DNA from: Streptomyces sp. NBC_01268
GTDB taxonomy: Bacteria; Actinomycetota; Actinomycetes; Streptomycetales; Streptomycetaceae
NCBI RefSeq assembly: GCF_036240795.1
Contig: NZ_CP108454.1
Span: forward strand, 6,942,001-7,006,000
Length of the DNA: 64,000 bases
Direction of reading: 5' to 3'
The notes under the pieces are model-generated. The model was not told the origin of the DNA. It saw only the letters and a list, made by a program, of their open reading frames with translations, and made no database searches. Position 1 is the stretch's first letter. Every line of letters begins with the position of its first letter. A program made the translations under genes and the position numbers. Positions 28,851-35,948 of this stretch are shown here, piece after piece.

Positions 28851-29849
<999 letters not shown>

Positions 29850-30020: not shown

Positions 30021-30815
30021 GTGGCAGACGATTCGAGAACAAGAGACAAGAACGCATTCGGGTCGTACGCGGCGATCGGTGACAGCTTCACGGAGGGCGT
30101 CGGCGACCCCGGCCCCGACGGGACGTACGTCGGATGGGCGGACCGGTTCGCGGTCCTGCTCGCCGACCAGCTGCCGGAGAACGACGCCTTCCGCTACGCC
30201 AACCTGGCGGTGCGGGGGCGCCTTCTGGACCAGATCGTCGCGGAGCAGGTCCCCCGGGCGAAGGAACTCGCCCCCGACCTGGTGACCTTCTGCGCCGGCG
30301 GCAACGACATCATCCGCCCCGGGACCGACCCCGACGACGTGGCCGAGCGCTTCGAGCGCGCGGTCGCCGACCTGACCTCCGCCGTGGGCACCGTCATGGT
30401 GACGACCGGCTTCGACACGCGCGACGTGCCCGTCCTGAAGCACCTGCGCGGGAAGATCGCCACCTACACCGCCCACGTCCGGAGCATCGCCGACCGCTAC
30501 GACTGCCCGGTGCTCGACCTGTGGTCGCTGAAGTCGGTCCAGGACCGGCGGGCCTGGGACGACGACCGGCTCCACCTGTCGGCCGAGGGACACACCCGGG
30601 TCGCGCTGCGCGCCGCCCAGGTCCTCGGTCTGCCGGTGCCGGCCGACCCGGACCAGCCGTGGCCGCCGCAGGCTCCGCGCGGCACCCTCGAGGTCCGCAA
30701 GGACGACATCCACTGGGCGAAGGAGTACCTGGTCCCGTGGATCGGACGCCGTCTGCGCGGCGAGAGCTCCGGGGACCACGTCGAGGCCAAGCGCCCCGAC
30801 CTCATGCCCCTCTAG
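30021..30815 (+). CDS. SGNH/GDSL-family hydrolase
   Basis: A 264-residue esterase/lipase-like enzyme without a signal peptide. Block I is AIGDSFTEG with nucleophile S22, block III CAGGNDIIRPG (oxyanion Asn), and block V DDRLHLSAEGH with the Asp/His pair. Arg/Lys-rich residues sit near the C-terminus. GTG 30021 has a weak GGGAAAG site. Its 3' end overlaps the convergent radical SAM gene by 14 bp. Substrate is not evident. Confidence 0.9.
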   Translation: MADDSRTRDKNAFGSYAAIGDSFTEGVGDPGPDGTYVGWADRFAVLLADQLPENDAFRYANLAVRGRLLDQIVAEQVPRAKELAPDLVTFCAGGNDIIRPGTDPDDVAERFERAVADLTSAVGTVMVTTGFDTRDVPVLKHLRGKIATYTAHVRSIADRYDCPVLDLWSLKSVQDRRAWDDDRLHLSAEGHTRVALRAAQVLGLPVPADPDQPWPPQAPRGTLEVRKDDIHWAKEYLVPWIGRRLRGESSGDHVEAKRPDLMPL

Positions 30816-31668
30816 GGGACGCGGGGAGTCCGGCCGGTATCCGTTCCAGGACGCCGCCGGCGAACACGTCGTACAGCGGCAGCGTCTCCAGGTGGACGTA
30901 GCCGATGTGGCAGTCGCAGACGGCGAGCGGACAGGGCCGCGGGCGCAGTGCGGTCCGGTACGACCCGTCGTAGAGGTTGCCCAGCTCGGCCCTGACGAAG
31001 TGGCAGCGCCGCACCGTCCCGTCGCCGTCCACCGAGACGACCGACTCGCCGGTGCGGCACGGCAGCCCGGCCGAGCGGTGCGGATGCCGGCTGTACGGGA
31101 AGAGGGGGTCGAGGAGCGTCCACTCCTCGGCCTCCACGTCGGTGTACGTGCGGCCCTCGGCCGCGTTCACCCACAGGTAGACGCCGGCCGGCAGCTCGGC
31201 GCGCAGCCGCCGGGCGGCGGCCAGGTGCTCCGGCAGGCCGACGATCCCCACGCTGAAGCGGATGCCTCGCCCCGCGAGCGCGTGGCACTTGCCGAGGAAC
31301 CGCTCGTACGGGGTCTGGCCCGGGTGGTACGTGCACCACAGGGCCACGCTGTCCGGGTCGGCCTCGTCCAGCCACTCCGTGCGGCAGCTCAGGTTGGTCT
31401 GGATCGCCACCCGCTCCACGTGGGGCAGCCGGGAGAGCTCCACCAGCGCGCGCCGGTACCAGGAGCGCACCAGGCCCTCGCCCCACGGGGTGAACAGGAC
31501 GCGCAGCCGGTCGTCCCGCCGCTCCGCCGCCCAGCCGGCGAAGCGCTCCAGGGCGGCCCGGTCGGCCGTCAGCGCCGCGCGGCTGTCGCGGCGCTTGGCG
31601 AACGGGCAGTACGGGCAGTCGTAGTCGCAGGAGGCCAAGGGGCCCCGGTACAACAGGGTCAGATCCAT
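30802..31668 (-). CDS. STM4011-family radical SAM protein
   Basis: A 288-residue radical SAM enzyme. Cluster ligands are C14-DYD-C18-PY-C21 in the first strand-loop. A second cysteine set lies towards the C-terminus (GLPCRTGE, RRCHFVR, RPCPLAVCDCHIGYVHL), likely binding an auxiliary Fe-S cluster as in SPASM-like enzymes. Short for the superfamily, so a partial TIM barrel is expected. It is the last gene of the five-gene STM4015-4011 operon, starting 11 bp after the STM4012 stop. Family name by recollection of its motifs and neighbours; substrate unknown. Confidence 0.85.
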   Translation of the reverse strand: MDLTLLYRGPLASCDYDCPYCPFAKRRDSRAALTADRAALERFAGWAAERRDDRLRVLFTPWGEGLVRSWYRRALVELSRLPHVERVAIQTNLSCRTEWLDEADPDSVALWCTYHPGQTPYERFLGKCHALAGRGIRFSVGIVGLPEHLAAARRLRAELPAGVYLWVNAAEGRTYTDVEAEEWTLLDPLFPYSRHPHRSAGLPCRTGESVVSVDGDGTVRRCHFVRAELGNLYDGSYRTALRPRPCPLAVCDCHIGYVHLETLPLYDVFAGGVLERIPAGLPASPRGA

Positions 31669-31679
31669 GCCGGGCCCCG

Positions 31680-33023
31680 CTACTTCGCCTCGTACGCGGC
31701 CATCGCCGCCCGCACCGCCGGGGAGAACAGCTCGGGGCCGAGCCCGTCCGAGAACGCGAGGCCCTCGGGGGAGAGCCGGAGCAGCCCGCCGGGAGCATCC
31801 CCGTCCAGCCAGCCCAGCTCCTCGAAGCGGGCGAGCTCGGCCGGGAAGTCCGCGAAGGGCGAGGCGCCGAAGCGGGCCGTGTAGTCCGCGGTCTCCATGC
31901 CCTCGGCCTGGAGCAGCGACTGCAGCAGATGGCGGCGGCGGGCCTCGTCCGGACCGGTCGGCCGGCCCACCTCCGCCCGGGAGAAGTCCGCCGTCGCCGT
32001 GTACGTGTCGATGATCGAGCGGATCTCGCGCATCCCGACCGCGTAGTCGAAGGAGTAGTGCAGCCGCGAGGTGTAGGAGCGGGCGCCGCAGCCCAGGCCG
32101 ATCATGCCGTCGGTCTGGCAGGCGTGGTCGTCGGGGCCGAGCGCGGGCGCGTCGGCGCGCCGGAACATGCGCATCGACACCTGTCGGTACCCGTGGGCGA
32201 GGAGGTGGTCCCGTCCGTGCCGGTAGAGCCGCAGCCGCTGCGCGTCCCACTCCCGGTCGGCGTCCTGCCCGCCGGTCTGCCGGCCGAGGCCGGTGAGCGG
32301 GCGGACGTACAGCGGGTAGAGGTAGAGCTCCTCGGGCCGCCACTGGAGCGCGGCGTCGAGCGAGCGGCGCCAGGACGCCTCGGTCTGGCCGTCGATGCCG
32401 TAGATGAGGTCGATGTTGAGGACCGGGACGCCGGTGTCCCGGATGCGTCCCAGGGCGGCCTCGACGTCGGCGCGGCGCTGCGGGCGCACGGCGGCCCGGG
32501 CCTCCTCCTCGACGAAGCTCTGCACGCCGATGCTCAGCCGGGTCGCGCCCCGCCCGGCGAGGACCGCGAGCCGGTCGGCGGTCGCCGTGGCCGGGGAGGT
32601 CTCCACGGACAGCGGCACCGTCCGCAGGTCGGCCCCCATCCGTCGCTCGGCGATGTCGCAGAGCCGCTCCAGCTCGGCGGCGGACAGATAGGTGGGCGTC
32701 CCGCCGCCGAACGCGGCCGTGGCGAACCGCACCGGCCCCGCGTCCCCCAGCGCCTCGCGCACCGCCGCGGCCTGCCGGTCCAGCGCGTCGAGGTAGCGGG
32801 TCGTCAGCTCGTCGGGGGCGCCGATCCGGGTGAAGAGGTTGCAGAAGCCGCAGCGGACCTCGCAGAAGGGTATGTGGGCGTAGAGGGAGAGCGCGTCCTT
32901 CGGCTCGTCCGCCCAGAGCGCGTCGAGCGGGGGCCGCTCGGGGAGCGGGCGGTACGCGGTCTTGTGCGGGTAGGCGTAGACGTAGCTGCGGTACGGGCGC
33001 GGCGTCCCGGTCGAGCGGGTCAT
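31680..33023 (-). CDS. STM4012-family radical SAM protein (HemN/HemW-like)
   Basis: 447 residues resembling coproporphyrinogen dehydrogenase/HemW. Cluster ligands are C54-EVR-C58-GF-C61 (HIPFCEVRCGFCNLF), the SAM-binding part FGGGTPTYLSAAELERL, then VETSPATATADRLAVLAGRGATRLSIGVQSF and a C-terminal HemN-like winged domain (LLQSLLQAEGMETADYTARFG). True HemN requires an N-terminal substrate-gating segment not obvious here, so another SAM chemistry or haem handling is likely. ATG 33023 overlaps the STM4013 stop by 4 nt. Confidence 0.88.
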   Translation of the reverse strand: MTRSTGTPRPYRSYVYAYPHKTAYRPLPERPPLDALWADEPKDALSLYAHIPFCEVRCGFCNLFTRIGAPDELTTRYLDALDRQAAAVREALGDAGPVRFATAAFGGGTPTYLSAAELERLCDIAERRMGADLRTVPLSVETSPATATADRLAVLAGRGATRLSIGVQSFVEEEARAAVRPQRRADVEAALGRIRDTGVPVLNIDLIYGIDGQTEASWRRSLDAALQWRPEELYLYPLYVRPLTGLGRQTGGQDADREWDAQRLRLYRHGRDHLLAHGYRQVSMRMFRRADAPALGPDDHACQTDGMIGLGCGARSYTSRLHYSFDYAVGMREIRSIIDTYTATADFSRAEVGRPTGPDEARRRHLLQSLLQAEGMETADYTARFGASPFADFPAELARFEELGWLDGDAPGGLLRLSPEGLAFSDGLGPELFSPAVRAAMAAYEAK

Positions 33024-33868
33024 GCGGCGTTCTCCATGCTGTCCGGGCCGGGCAGGACGAACTGTGCGTACGGCACGTTCCATACGCTCTCGTGGCCGAG
33101 CCGGTGCCCGGTGAAGCCGTCGTCCCCGTACGCGGTGCCGTGGTCCGAGCAGACGACGGCGAAGCAGTCGCGGCGGCTGCTCATGGCCGCGAACAGGCGC
33201 CCGATGTGCCGGTCGACGTACTCCAGGGCGGCGGCGTGGGTGGCCCGCGAGTCACCGGCCTCGCGGCTCGCGCCCGGCTGGTGGAACCAGTTGGGCTGGT
33301 GCAGGGCGGACACGTTCACGAAGAGGAAGAGGCGCCGGTCGCGCGGGAGGGCGGCGACGACCTCCTCGGCGCGCTCCACCTGCGACTCGAACGAGGTGGG
33401 TGAGGCGACCCCGAACGAGGGCTCCCAGTGGCTCTCCTGGAACAGGCCGGGCAGGACCGCGCCGAGCGGCGGCCGCCCGTTGAAGAAGCCGACCCCGCCG
33501 ACGCACACGGTCCGGTAGCCCTCGTGCGCGAGCGCCGACACCAGGTCGGGCGTCTCGTGGAAGACGTAGGTGCCGTCGGCCGTGGTCTCGCTTCCCGCGA
33601 AGGAGGCGGCGAAGAGTCTCGGGTGCGGTCCCGGCGAGGCGGGGGTGGGCAGGAAGCCGGCGAAGATCGCCTGGTGGGAGGCGTAGGTGAAGCTGCCGGG
33701 CGCGTGCCGGAGCTCCCAGGCACCGCCGGGCAGGTGGCGGGCCAGGTTCGGGATGCGGCCCTCGGCGGCCAGCTCGGCGGCCACGTCGTACCGCAGGGTG
33801 TCCAGGGTGACGAGGAGCAGGTCGTGGCTGCCGACGATCCGGTTCATGTCCAGTGCGGGCGGGGTCAC
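33020..33868 (-). CDS. STM4013/SEN3800-family hydrolase (alkaline phosphatase/sulfatase fold)
   Basis: A 282-residue protein of the alkaline-phosphatase superfamily. The metal/nucleophile strand is LLLVTLDTLRYDVAAE (Asp and Thr). FTYASHQAIFAGFLP occupies the position of the sulfatase/phosphodiesterase active-site helix, and CFAVVCSDHGTAYGDDG with GHRLGHESVW supplies the distal His/Asp metal ligands. No signal peptide, so a cytoplasmic phospho- or sulfo-ester substrate is expected. I choose GTG 33868, which overlaps the STM4014 stop (GTGA); ATG 33847 is an alternative. Confidence 0.87.
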   Translation of the reverse strand: MTPPALDMNRIVGSHDLLLVTLDTLRYDVAAELAAEGRIPNLARHLPGGAWELRHAPGSFTYASHQAIFAGFLPTPASPGPHPRLFAASFAGSETTADGTYVFHETPDLVSALAHEGYRTVCVGGVGFFNGRPPLGAVLPGLFQESHWEPSFGVASPTSFESQVERAEEVVAALPRDRRLFLFVNVSALHQPNWFHQPGASREAGDSRATHAAALEYVDRHIGRLFAAMSSRRDCFAVVCSDHGTAYGDDGFTGHRLGHESVWNVPYAQFVLPGPDSMENAA

Positions 33869-34992
33869 GGCGTGCTCGTTCCTGTCGGTCGGGGGGTGCG
33901 GAGGTAGCCGGCGAGCTGCGCCGCGTAGGTGTCCAGGCCCTCGGCACCGCTGCCCGGCAGACCGGTGAGGCCGGGCAGCAGATCGCCGAAGGCGTTGACC
34001 TCGCCCACCGCGAAGCGGCGCCAGCCGGTGGCGGGCAGCAGGTCGACGCCCACGCAGCGGGTACCGGGGAAGGCCGCGGCCGCCCGCTCGCAGACGTCCA
34101 GGGCGTCGGCGAACCGCCCGCCCGCGGCGCCGATCGCGGCCCGCGCCGCGTCCAGGTCGCCCCGGGCGCCGCCCAGATGCAGATTGGTCATGGGGGAGCG
34201 GCTGGTGCGCACGACGGCGTGGGTGGCCCGGCCGTCGACCACCACCACCCGCAGGTCGGCCGCGCGCCCGCCGAGCGAGGCCTTGGGCACCCAGCGCTCG
34301 ACGTGCAGGCCGTCCGGGGCGAGCGCGTCCACGAGGGCCGCGACCTCGCGCTCGGTCGTGTAGCGGCGCACCCGCAGCGAGTTGTGCAGCCGCCCGTCCG
34401 CGTCCAGCTCGACCGAGGTGGTGGCCTGCGTCCGGCCGGAGGCGGCCCTCTCCAGGGCGAGCACCCCGGAGGCGGAGGAGCCGTGCGCCGGTTTCACGAA
34501 GACCCGGCGCATCCCCTGACCGGCCGTCAGTGCGCGCACGTCGTCCCAGCCCCGTACGGGCGGGGCGGCCGGGCCCGAGGTCGGCGCGTGCGGCACGGGC
34601 ACCCCGGCCGCGAGGAGCCGGCCGTGCCCGAGCCGCTTGTCGAAGAGGACGGCGAGCTCGTCCGGGTCGCCGAGCAGGACCGCGCCGGCCGTCCGCACTC
34701 CGGCGGCGAGCCCGTGCACCGCCGCCGTGAAGCGCGCGTACCAGCGTCCCGTGCCCTCGACCCGGGTCGGCTCCGGCACGCCCCGCAGCAGCCGGTCGAC
34801 CTCCGGCTCCTCGCCGGGGGAGTCGAGCCGCACGAGCTCCCCGGGGTGGAAGCGGGCCCCGCCCCGCAGCACGTCGAGCCACGGCACGACCCGCGGCCGG
34901 GGCAGCCCGGCGGCGCGCGCCGCGTCCTGGAAGAGCCGCACCCGGCGGCCCTCCGGGTTGCCGACGACGGCGAGGGGCGGGGCGCCGCTCAC
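33865..34992 (-). CDS. STM4014-family protein (ATP-grasp/RimK-like)
   Basis: 375 residues. The N-terminal part (PLAVVGNPEGRRVRLFQDAARAAG) resembles a pre-ATP-grasp domain. Residues ~115-355 show ATP-grasp landmarks: RRVFVKPAHGSSASGVLAL (ATP-binding Lys and Gly/Ser loop), VERWVPK, DLRVVVVDGRATHAVVR and the metal-binding end VGVDLLPATGWRRFAVGEVNAFGDL. Such enzymes join a carboxylate to an amine, thiol or similar group using ATP. GTG 34992 overlaps the STM4015 stop by 4 nt. Substrate unknown. Confidence 0.83.
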   Translation of the reverse strand: MSGAPPLAVVGNPEGRRVRLFQDAARAAGLPRPRVVPWLDVLRGGARFHPGELVRLDSPGEEPEVDRLLRGVPEPTRVEGTGRWYARFTAAVHGLAAGVRTAGAVLLGDPDELAVLFDKRLGHGRLLAAGVPVPHAPTSGPAAPPVRGWDDVRALTAGQGMRRVFVKPAHGSSASGVLALERAASGRTQATTSVELDADGRLHNSLRVRRYTTEREVAALVDALAPDGLHVERWVPKASLGGRAADLRVVVVDGRATHAVVRTSRSPMTNLHLGGARGDLDAARAAIGAAGGRFADALDVCERAAAAFPGTRCVGVDLLPATGWRRFAVGEVNAFGDLLPGLTGLPGSGAEGLDTYAAQLAGYLRTPRPTGTSTP

Positions 34993-35948
34993 TCGGCGAC
35001 CGCCACGTACCGGTACGGCTCGCCGTCGCCGTCGTCCTCCGGCGTCTGCGCGTCGTCGAGGTCGACCGTCACCCCGTGAGGAGCGAGGGTCGCGGTCACC
35101 CGCTCGGCGGTCCGGGCCGACAGGTAGTGGTGGGCGAGCCCGAGCCGGTGCAGGTGGGTCAGCGGCTGCCCGGCGAGCAGCGCCTCCGCGCCCGCGTCGG
35201 TGAGCACGCCCATGGACAGGTCGAGCTCCTCCAGCCGGGCGACGACCGGCGCGGTGGCCACGGCGGCGGCGATCTGGTCCTGGATGTGGCTGTTGCGCAG
35301 CCCGAGCCGCCGCAGAGCGGGCAGCCGGTCCCCGGTCAGCAGCGGCTCCAGGTCGGCGGGTGTCGCGTCCGCCCCGTACTCCTCGGTGCCCAGCCACAGC
35401 TCCAGTCGCTCCAGCGCGGGCAGCTCGCTCGCCGCGACGCCCCGCACGACCTCGGCGCCCAGGCCGCCGGTCTCCAGGACCAGGGTGCGCAGCGCGGTGT
35501 GCCGCACGGGCGGGAAGGCGAGCCCGCTGCCGCCGCGCACCCCCAGCTCGCGCAGCCGCGGGTAGGCCGCGAGCAGCGGGCCGACGTCGGACTGGACGAT
35601 CCACGAGACCTCGCACTCCTCGGAGGTCATGTCGCCGAGGAACAGCGCCTCCAGCCCCGTGAGCCGGTTGTTCGCGCCCATGAGCGCCGTCACGATCCCG
35701 GCGGAGGAGGTGTCGTACGCCTCCTCCCAGCCGCCGACCACGACGGCCCGCACCCGGCCGGTCTCCACCGTCGCCAGGAAGCGCTCGAACAGCGGCCCCC
35801 ACTCCTCGTCCTCCGGGTCCGCGTACGTCGGCGCGGAGAGCCGCCACGCCACCGAGGCCGGATCGGGCAGCCGGACCGCGGCGCCCGGCGCCGGGAACTC
35901 GAACACGGGCAGGCCGTGGAACTCCTGCAGGTGAACCCCGATGGTCAT
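34989..35948 (-). CDS. STM4015-family leucine-rich-repeat protein
   Basis: A 319-residue cytoplasmic protein, first gene of the operon. The first ~90 residues form a distinct domain (VHLQEFHGLPVFEFP, WRLSAPTYADPEDEEWGPLFERFL). Then come at least five leucine-rich repeats of the ribonuclease-inhibitor style (ALRTLVLETGGLG, ALERLELWLGTEEYG, ALRRLGLRNSHIQ, RLEELDLSMGVLTDAG, HLHRLGLAHHYLS). No catalytic residues are evident; a binding or scaffold role, or being the substrate of the downstream enzymes, is plausible. ATG 35948. In length and gene order it fits the STM4015 family as I recall it. Confidence 0.85.
   Translation of the reverse strand: MTIGVHLQEFHGLPVFEFPAPGAAVRLPDPASVAWRLSAPTYADPEDEEWGPLFERFLATVETGRVRAVVVGGWEEAYDTSSAGIVTALMGANNRLTGLEALFLGDMTSEECEVSWIVQSDVGPLLAAYPRLRELGVRGGSGLAFPPVRHTALRTLVLETGGLGAEVVRGVAASELPALERLELWLGTEEYGADATPADLEPLLTGDRLPALRRLGLRNSHIQDQIAAAVATAPVVARLEELDLSMGVLTDAGAEALLAGQPLTHLHRLGLAHHYLSARTAERVTATLAPHGVTVDLDDAQTPEDDGDGEPYRYVAVAE

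Follow-up and report, generated by a model that had tools for sequence, protein, structure and literature searches.

A conserved STM4015–STM4011 operon in Streptomyces sp. NBC_01268 and a possible modification of the C-terminal glutamate of its leucine-rich-repeat protein

Several described pathways act on the C-terminus of an encoded protein. In LysW systems, the gamma-carboxylate of the C-terminal Glu accepts the building block, and pearlin pathways assemble an amino-acid product on a genetically encoded carrier, at its C-terminus, in one case with a radical S-adenosylmethionine (SAM) enzyme (both from the accessible portion of PMC9303977). RimK extends the C-terminus of ribosomal protein S6 (RpsF), according to the accessible portion of PMC4741518. 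Here we describe the STM4015–STM4011 operon of Streptomyces sp. NBC_01268, located in a stretch of 64,000 nucleotides (contig NZ_CP108454.1, positions 6,942,001 to 7,006,000), referred to below as the window. It encodes a leucine-rich-repeat (LRR) protein, an ATP-grasp ligase, a phosphatase-fold hydrolase and two radical SAM enzymes. This operon is real, coherent and widespread. The new finding is the near-universal terminal Glu of the LRR protein STM4015 and its loss in genomes that lack the ligase STM4014. With a probability of roughly 0.58, STM4014 joins an amine to this C-terminal Glu, and the radical SAM enzymes and STM4013, in many cases joined by a HAD phosphatase, assemble or trim the attached group.

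The five genes are arranged in the order 4015-4014-4013-4012-4011, and all five proteins exceed the curated NCBIfam cut-offs:

34989–35948, minus strand: STM4015, LRR protein of 319 residues; ATG start; NF038076, 392 bits (cut-off 275), E = 1.4e-117
34992–35051, minus strand: C-terminal tail of STM4015, residues 300–319, ending ...YRYVAVAE; the Glu319 codon is 34992–34994
33865–34992, minus strand: STM4014, ATP-grasp ligase of 375 residues; GTG start; NF038074, 452 bits (cut-off 175), E = 2.1e-135
33020–33868, minus strand: STM4013, hydrolase of the alkaline-phosphatase superfamily, resembling nucleotide pyrophosphatases/phosphodiesterases (NPPs); GTG start; NF038075, 414 bits (cut-off 250), E = 3.1e-124
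31680–33023, minus strand: STM4012, HemW/HemN-like radical SAM protein of 447 residues; ATG start; NF006067, 637 bits (cut-off 380), E = 1.5e-191
30802–31668, minus strand: STM4011, short radical SAM enzyme; ATG start; NF038073, 416 bits (cut-off 200), E = 8.8e-125

Neighbouring genes overlap by 4 nt at three junctions (34989–34992, 33865–33868 and 33020–33023), and STM4012 and STM4011 are separated by 11 bp (31669–31679). The first-pass annotation, made from the sequence alone, had proposed a complete operon of five minus-strand genes with exactly this spacing; coordinates and NCBIfam matches bear it out.

The AlphaFold2 model of STM4015 has a predicted local distance difference test (pLDDT) score of 94.7. 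Its nearest solved fold is 2ra8, the Bacteroides fragilis member of the STM4015 family, and the match runs to a ...PMITE end located 8 residues short of the end of the crystallised chain. The Bacteroides proteins carry an N-terminal WGR domain. When STM4015 from four distant genera, the window and seven database homologues were aligned, the last residue proved to be an invariant Glu, preceded by an acidic, poorly conserved stretch. In the first locus set, the protein was Glu-terminal in 95/95 strong and 8/9 weak hidden Markov model matches, the weak exception (53 bits) being a different LRR protein. The latter, with a WWG end, occupies the STM4015 slot of a Myxococcales operon (L117:7927–8862), and the same genome encodes a true STM4015 elsewhere (L206) that ends in ...SVTE. 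The partner proteins of this locus set were Glu-terminal in 13 of 328 cases (STM4014, 3/83; STM4013, 4/87; STM4012, 2/83; STM4011, 4/75).

After removal of near-duplicates (28 of 329 STM4015 copies, identical over the last 230 residues), all 170 operon-type and all 116 database copies ended in Glu; 154 of the operon-type copies had STM4014 in the same fetched piece. The Glu end holds in 22/22 clusters at 50% identity and in 9/9 at 40%, and is the sole invariant position (–1) among the last 25 residues. Other tail features include V, L or I at –3 (21/22 clusters), an aromatic residue at –6 (86%) and a D/E-rich segment from –9 to –17; the aromatic residue stands at –6 or –8, depending on the lineage. 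Cyanobacterial loci contain up to four STM4015 copies with bodies 38–54% identical, and in actinomycetes up to five copies follow one another, with 61–79% identity within the arrays of four or five; all copies shown are Glu-terminal. In three loci (L242, L243 and L244), four or five tandem STM4015 genes lie next to one STM4014 gene.

A biased last codon, resulting from the overlap of the STM4015 stop with the STM4014 start, was considered as the source of the terminal Glu and rejected, since the two genes are separated by 12 bp in Salmonella, 58 bp in Paenibacillus and 24 bp in Deinococcus, and since copies located away from STM4014 can retain Glu. Later loci, examined at the same score limit, yielded 73 new STM4015 copies, 68 of which are Glu-terminal. 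The other five weigh against ligation to a terminal Glu as a general rule: three are weaker LRR relatives (L207, L209 and L211), one contains an internal stop (L252) and one lies at a contig end (L253). The last two were counted neither for nor against.

The model of STM4014 (pLDDT 91.3) has LysX and ArgX.LysW (3vpb and 3vpd) as well as RimK as its top solved folds, with PsnB also among the top matches. The best match in the profile search was RimK (5zct, E = 4e-6). STM4014 scores 21.5 bits against rimK_fam (cut-off 143.4), so that it is not a LysX/ArgX/RimK member by sequence and the similarity is one of fold only. Residues K119, K167, E232, W234, K237, D246, R248 and R262, the stretch T269-N270-L271-H272-L273, and E331 and N333 are invariant in 27/27 aligned sequences (L112 was excluded from this alignment); the Paenibacillus protein has Asp at the position of E331. 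These features support the assignment of STM4014 as an ATP-grasp ligase that looks active, in agreement with the carboxylate-amine/thiol ligase fold suggested at first pass.

The tail could also serve solely as a recognition tag that docks the enzymes, its carboxylate being used for binding and not for chemistry, while another STM4015 residue or a molecule held by the LRR domain is modified. The tail motif beyond Glu, with its aromatic residue at –6, V/L/I at –3 and acidic linker, does resemble a binding motif, and the tail is ordered in the STM4015 model. However, the nearest folds of STM4014 belong to enzymes working on protein C-termini and, to our knowledge, docking motifs rarely require one exact terminal residue. 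We regard a mere docking role as unlikely.

The behaviour of the terminal Glu in genomes without STM4014 bears directly on the proposed ligation. STM4015 was found in five of the 201 STM4014-negative Streptomyces genomes searched (of 202); one of the three underlying searches (0/80 genomes) had no match in its control genomes, and the same family was matched in other surveys. None of these five proteins is Glu-terminal; they end in ...PLTY, ...SIAV, ...EGLP, ...PVSY and ...GRDF. In STM4014-positive Streptomyces, 8/11 copies located away from the operon retain Glu, and the three non-Glu copies (L152, L153 and L162) fall within two of the same losing lineages. The class sample contributes six further STM4014-positive genomes, whose intact copies at a distance from STM4014 all retain Glu (7/7). 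One-sided Fisher tests of Glu retention against STM4014, which ignore relatedness, gave p = 0.013 for the first set and p = 0.0017 with the second included.

On a tree of 89 STM4015 sequences, built with the tail excluded, the terminal residue changed three times, and the ancestral state under midpoint rooting is Glu. The losses are few and all in the same direction, and all three occurred in copies outside the operon. One copy from an STM4014-less genome (L150) has lost Glu, while the remaining five sequences of its group, all from STM4014-positive genomes, retain it. Glu is retained in L118, with no STM4014 within the 20.8-kb piece, and in two short contigs (L059 and L071), with no STM4014 within the contig.

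In the scheme we propose, STM4015 would be a protein substrate or carrier with Glu at the end of its acidic tail. Glu319 would be activated with ATP by STM4014 and then coupled to an amine, that of an amino acid or of a comparable building block, in parallel to the action of LysX on LysW and of RimK on ribosomal protein S6. The attached group may then be remodelled by STM4011, of the SPASM type, and STM4012, of the HemW/class C type. STM4013, in many species alongside a HAD phosphatase, might strip nucleotide or phosphate parts from the building block or its precursor. The ligation, the sequence of the steps and what the other enzymes do are all inferred, the last from their enzyme families; ligation to Glu319 is the best-supported step. 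Of the three roles offered for the LRR protein by the first-pass annotation, that of substrate or carrier is favoured because of the C-terminal Glu, and those of scaffold or sensor less so. We lean slightly towards a modification that stays on the LRR protein over release of a small molecule, because no conserved peptidase or exporter gene was found beside these genes and the same tail recurs on multiple LRR copies in many genomes. A broader and more doubtful extension is that a cofactor-like, radical-SAM-built group is assembled by a dedicated module of five genes on the C-terminal Glu of LRR proteins, which may possess WGR or another N-terminal domain and may be encoded in arrays of as many as five. 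This would be a modification class spanning several phyla, in which the LRR domain picks the target and the group on the tail acts.

STM4013 matched both PF00884 (Sulfatase) and PF01663 (Phosphodiest) above the Pfam cut-offs. The family profile retrieved the NPP structures 7n1s and 2gsn with whole-sequence E-values of 2.8e-8 and 4.4e-8, each through two weak stretches. Thr61 is invariant in 5/5 aligned sequences, Asp and His residues are conserved, and the SFTYAAH-like stretch of STM4013 aligns with the SLTFPNH-like stretch of NPPs, placing Thr61 at the position of the Thr that we take to be the NPP nucleophile. In sulfatases, the nucleophile is a Cys or Ser turned into formylglycine. A sulfatase was considered and ruled out by the invariant Thr61 aligned to the NPP SLT stretch. 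Judged by its sequence, STM4013 resembles a nucleotide pyrophosphatase/phosphodiesterase with Thr at the nucleophile position; from the earlier suggestion of a metal-dependent phospho- or sulfo-hydrolase, the metal-hydrolase fold therefore stands and the sulfatase option falls.

A HAD motif was detected downstream in the STM4011 reading frame in 28 of 77 loci. The profile made from these 28 sequences located the domain, fused or separate, in 55/88 loci. Pfam assigns the HAD domain of L039 to Hydrolase_3, and in Salmonella a gene for a Cof-type HAD protein overlaps STM4011. A phosphoesterase, a HAD phosphatase and a ligase are typical of small-molecule pathways, and the four enzymes might together make a free metabolite, with STM4015 as a covalently unmodified scaffold or sensor. 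Such a pathway predicts neither the Glu end of every operon-type copy nor the loss of Glu without the ligase, and we consider it distinctly improbable.

STM4012 contains a CxxxCxxC motif and a HemN C-terminal domain; its matches to NF006067, PF04055 (Radical_SAM) and PF06969 (HemN_C) agree with the HemW-like radical SAM enzyme recognised at first pass. Among solved structures it matched HemN (1olt) and the methyltransferase NocN (9p2u). Besides the radical SAM Cys triad, STM4011 possesses five further Cys residues (C204, C222, C246, C251 and C253), invariant in 5/5 aligned sequences, and the extra C-terminal cysteines reported earlier for this short enzyme are accounted for by this cluster. 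Its profile matched the C-terminal part of SkfB weakly (E = 7e-4) and anSME more weakly (E = 0.1), and SPASM was barely above the cut-off in the homologue from L039. These matches support a SPASM-like nature of the C-terminal cluster.

Radical SAM decarboxylation or cross-linking of terminal residues has precedents in the mycofactocin and pyrroloquinoline quinone precursors. STM4011 might act likewise on the terminal residues of STM4015, with STM4014 acting elsewhere; its weak matches to the peptide and protein modifiers SkfB and anSME and the conserved aromatics of the tail would fit. Against such editing, the aromatic position shifts with lineage and no conserved peptidase was found adjoining the genes, so that we think it improbable, a little more so than a free metabolite. 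Pup is attached to lysines via its C-terminal Glu, and LRR domains bind proteins, but conjugation of STM4015, through its terminal Glu, to lysines on other proteins is very hard to credit, given that a folded domain of ~300 residues is an unlikely tag, that STM4014 is an ATP-grasp enzyme of the RimK/LysX kind and not PafA-like, and that two radical SAM enzymes would be left unexplained.

The distribution of the operon was examined in a scan with the STM4013 alignment, covering one genome per species (84,980 species) and confirming at least 579 relatives. The best 80 of these formed a locus set from Clostridia, Bacteroidota, Cyanobacteria, Actinomycetota, Verrucomicrobia, Myxococcales and one Zoogloeaceae bin. 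According to the titles of these and the plasmid loci, the carriers range from soil relatives of Streptomyces to gut Lachnospiraceae, Bacteroides and Salmonella. All five families were present within the fetched piece in 66/80 loci, in 60 of them in the window order. Because of this co-location in other species, the grouping is no chance arrangement. The same five families stand together in Salmonella, Paenibacillus, Deinococcus, Methylobacterium and on an Embleya plasmid. Several of the remaining 14 loci are truncated by contig ends. Where STM4011 was absent from the piece, it was present elsewhere in the genome (4/4: L089, L093, L094 and L108), and in L062, L094 and L117 the same was true of STM4015, which was Glu-terminal.

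Since the 80 loci were selected by STM4013, they give no measure of the independence of the families; 121 Streptomyces genomes were searched for that, and the whole-genome surveys covered the STM4015, STM4014, STM4011 and STM4012 families. STM4015 was found in 57 genomes, STM4014 in 54, STM4011 in 56 and STM4012, over the cut-off, in 56. Each of the 54 STM4014-positive genomes contained both STM4015 and STM4011, and STM4012 exceeded the cut-off in 53. The exceptions were STM4011 without STM4014 in two genomes (G310 and G391) and STM4012 over the cut-off without STM4014 in three (G303, G317 and G391). The families do not occur independently of one another in this survey, in line with the first-pass proposal, and the data support the view of the five genes as one functional unit. 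In the class sample, STM4015 was present in 40/296 genomes; 27 of the 28 carriers checked for STM4014 were positive, and the other 12 were positive in the Streptomyces surveys. In the single negative carrier, G874, the STM4015 copy sits at a contig end. STM4014 exceeded the cut-off in 6/296 genomes of the phylum sample. A decaying operon with several fragmented genes was observed in the Streptomyces genome G360 (L163) and set apart as a pseudogene.

Mobility of the system, also suggested at first pass, receives partial support. STM4014 is patchily distributed, being present in 190/392 Streptomyces genomes (up to five candidates scored per genome); one database entry for it comes from S. venezuelae ATCC 10712. 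Among 72,556 plasmid records, 22 contain an STM4012 relative, eight of them from Rhizobium and one from Cupriavidus, and the two of these loci that were read (L032:11950–14267 and L033:11926–14261) have a class I methyltransferase gene after it and no other STM401x gene. The relatives on the eight Rhizobium records and the one from Cupriavidus taiwanensis are divergent (29–32% identity), and perhaps represent, with the methyltransferase, a separate two-gene system. The R. tropici plasmid with this relative also bears a NodA-family gene. A lone STM4012, 61% identical, is located on a plasmid of Streptomyces sp. SAT1 (L038:7944–9326). The alignment-based scan confirmed no STM4013 relatives in viral contigs.

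Clustering of flanking open reading frames within 8 kb revealed no transporter, peptidase or regulator family common to most loci. The broadest cluster, of ABC-transporter-like proteins in 20 loci at a median distance of 4.1 kb, and another of transporter-like proteins in 9 loci were read as ordinary neighbours. DUF6745 occurs near the operon in four loci only (L035, L036, L109 and L112): its gene adjoins the operon in Deinococcus and in Methylobacterium, where it is annotated as such, and in Nonomuraea, where Pfam identifies it, and the Actinomadura protein from L112 belongs to the same sequence cluster. In the window, STM4011 and a GDSL-lipase gene (30021–30815, plus strand) converge, and their ends overlap at 30802–30815. 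Near the 3' end of the operon, the plus strand also encodes an M23 peptidase (28851–29849) that has a LysM-like stretch and a long linker rich in serine. The sole match to PADLOC defence models was a partial and weak one, of STM4012 residues 158–240 to PDC-M51A (26 bits).

As stated at first pass, the operon has no assigned pathway: the literature searched, which left subscription journals mostly outside its scope, contained no paper that deals with its function. Two tables mention these loci, according to the accessible portions of the papers: one on positive selection lists STM4015 (PMC2784778), and one on sigma-54 binding sites lists STM4013.S (PMC3844500). A paper on iron in gut Bacteroidetes that names LRR genes (PMC10434189) was considered and dropped, as its accessible portion established no link to the operon. 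The terminal-Glu rule turns bare 'family protein' labels into a specific, testable proposal for families found across many phyla.

All five proteins are members of the NCBIfam families STM4011–STM4015, which carry no functional assignment. The conserved partner of the enzymes is a folded LRR protein, unlike the short precursors of graspetides and other RiPPs, from which a leader is cleaved; other small open reading frames were outside the search. With the graspetides of the PsnB type, the operon would share an ATP-grasp maturase acting on carboxylates of an encoded substrate, PsnB being among the top folds of STM4014. It differs in that the substrate would be a folded LRR protein with a terminal carboxylate, whereas graspetide ligation uses internal carboxylates of short precursor peptides. 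The accessible text of one graspetide survey (PMC8939145) mentions no LRR, leucine-rich, HemN, STM40, sulfatase or alkaline phosphatase. Pearlins differ in that PEARL enzymes, in the accessible description, use aminoacyl-tRNA, whereas the loader here would be an ATP-grasp enzyme and the carrier a folded LRR protein; family searches detected no PEARL-type aminoacyl-tRNA ligase among the five operon proteins.

Glutamylation of S6 is comparable in that RimK (5zct) is the top sequence-profile match of STM4014. The target in the operon would be non-ribosomal, however, and radical SAM enzymes and a hydrolase are added. With LysW and LysX (ArgX), the operon shares the ATP-grasp ligase of closest fold and a Glu-terminal putative carrier (...VAVAE in the window). 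LysW is small, whereas the carrier here would be a folded LRR protein of ~320 residues, sometimes with WGR. LysW systems employ a kinase, a reductase and an aminotransferase; the operon has two radical SAM enzymes and phosphoesterases instead, with no conserved peptidase found nearby. If the proposed ligation is correct, folded LRR proteins and radical SAM chemistry would join the carrier-borne pathways represented by LysW, RimK/S6 and the pearlins.

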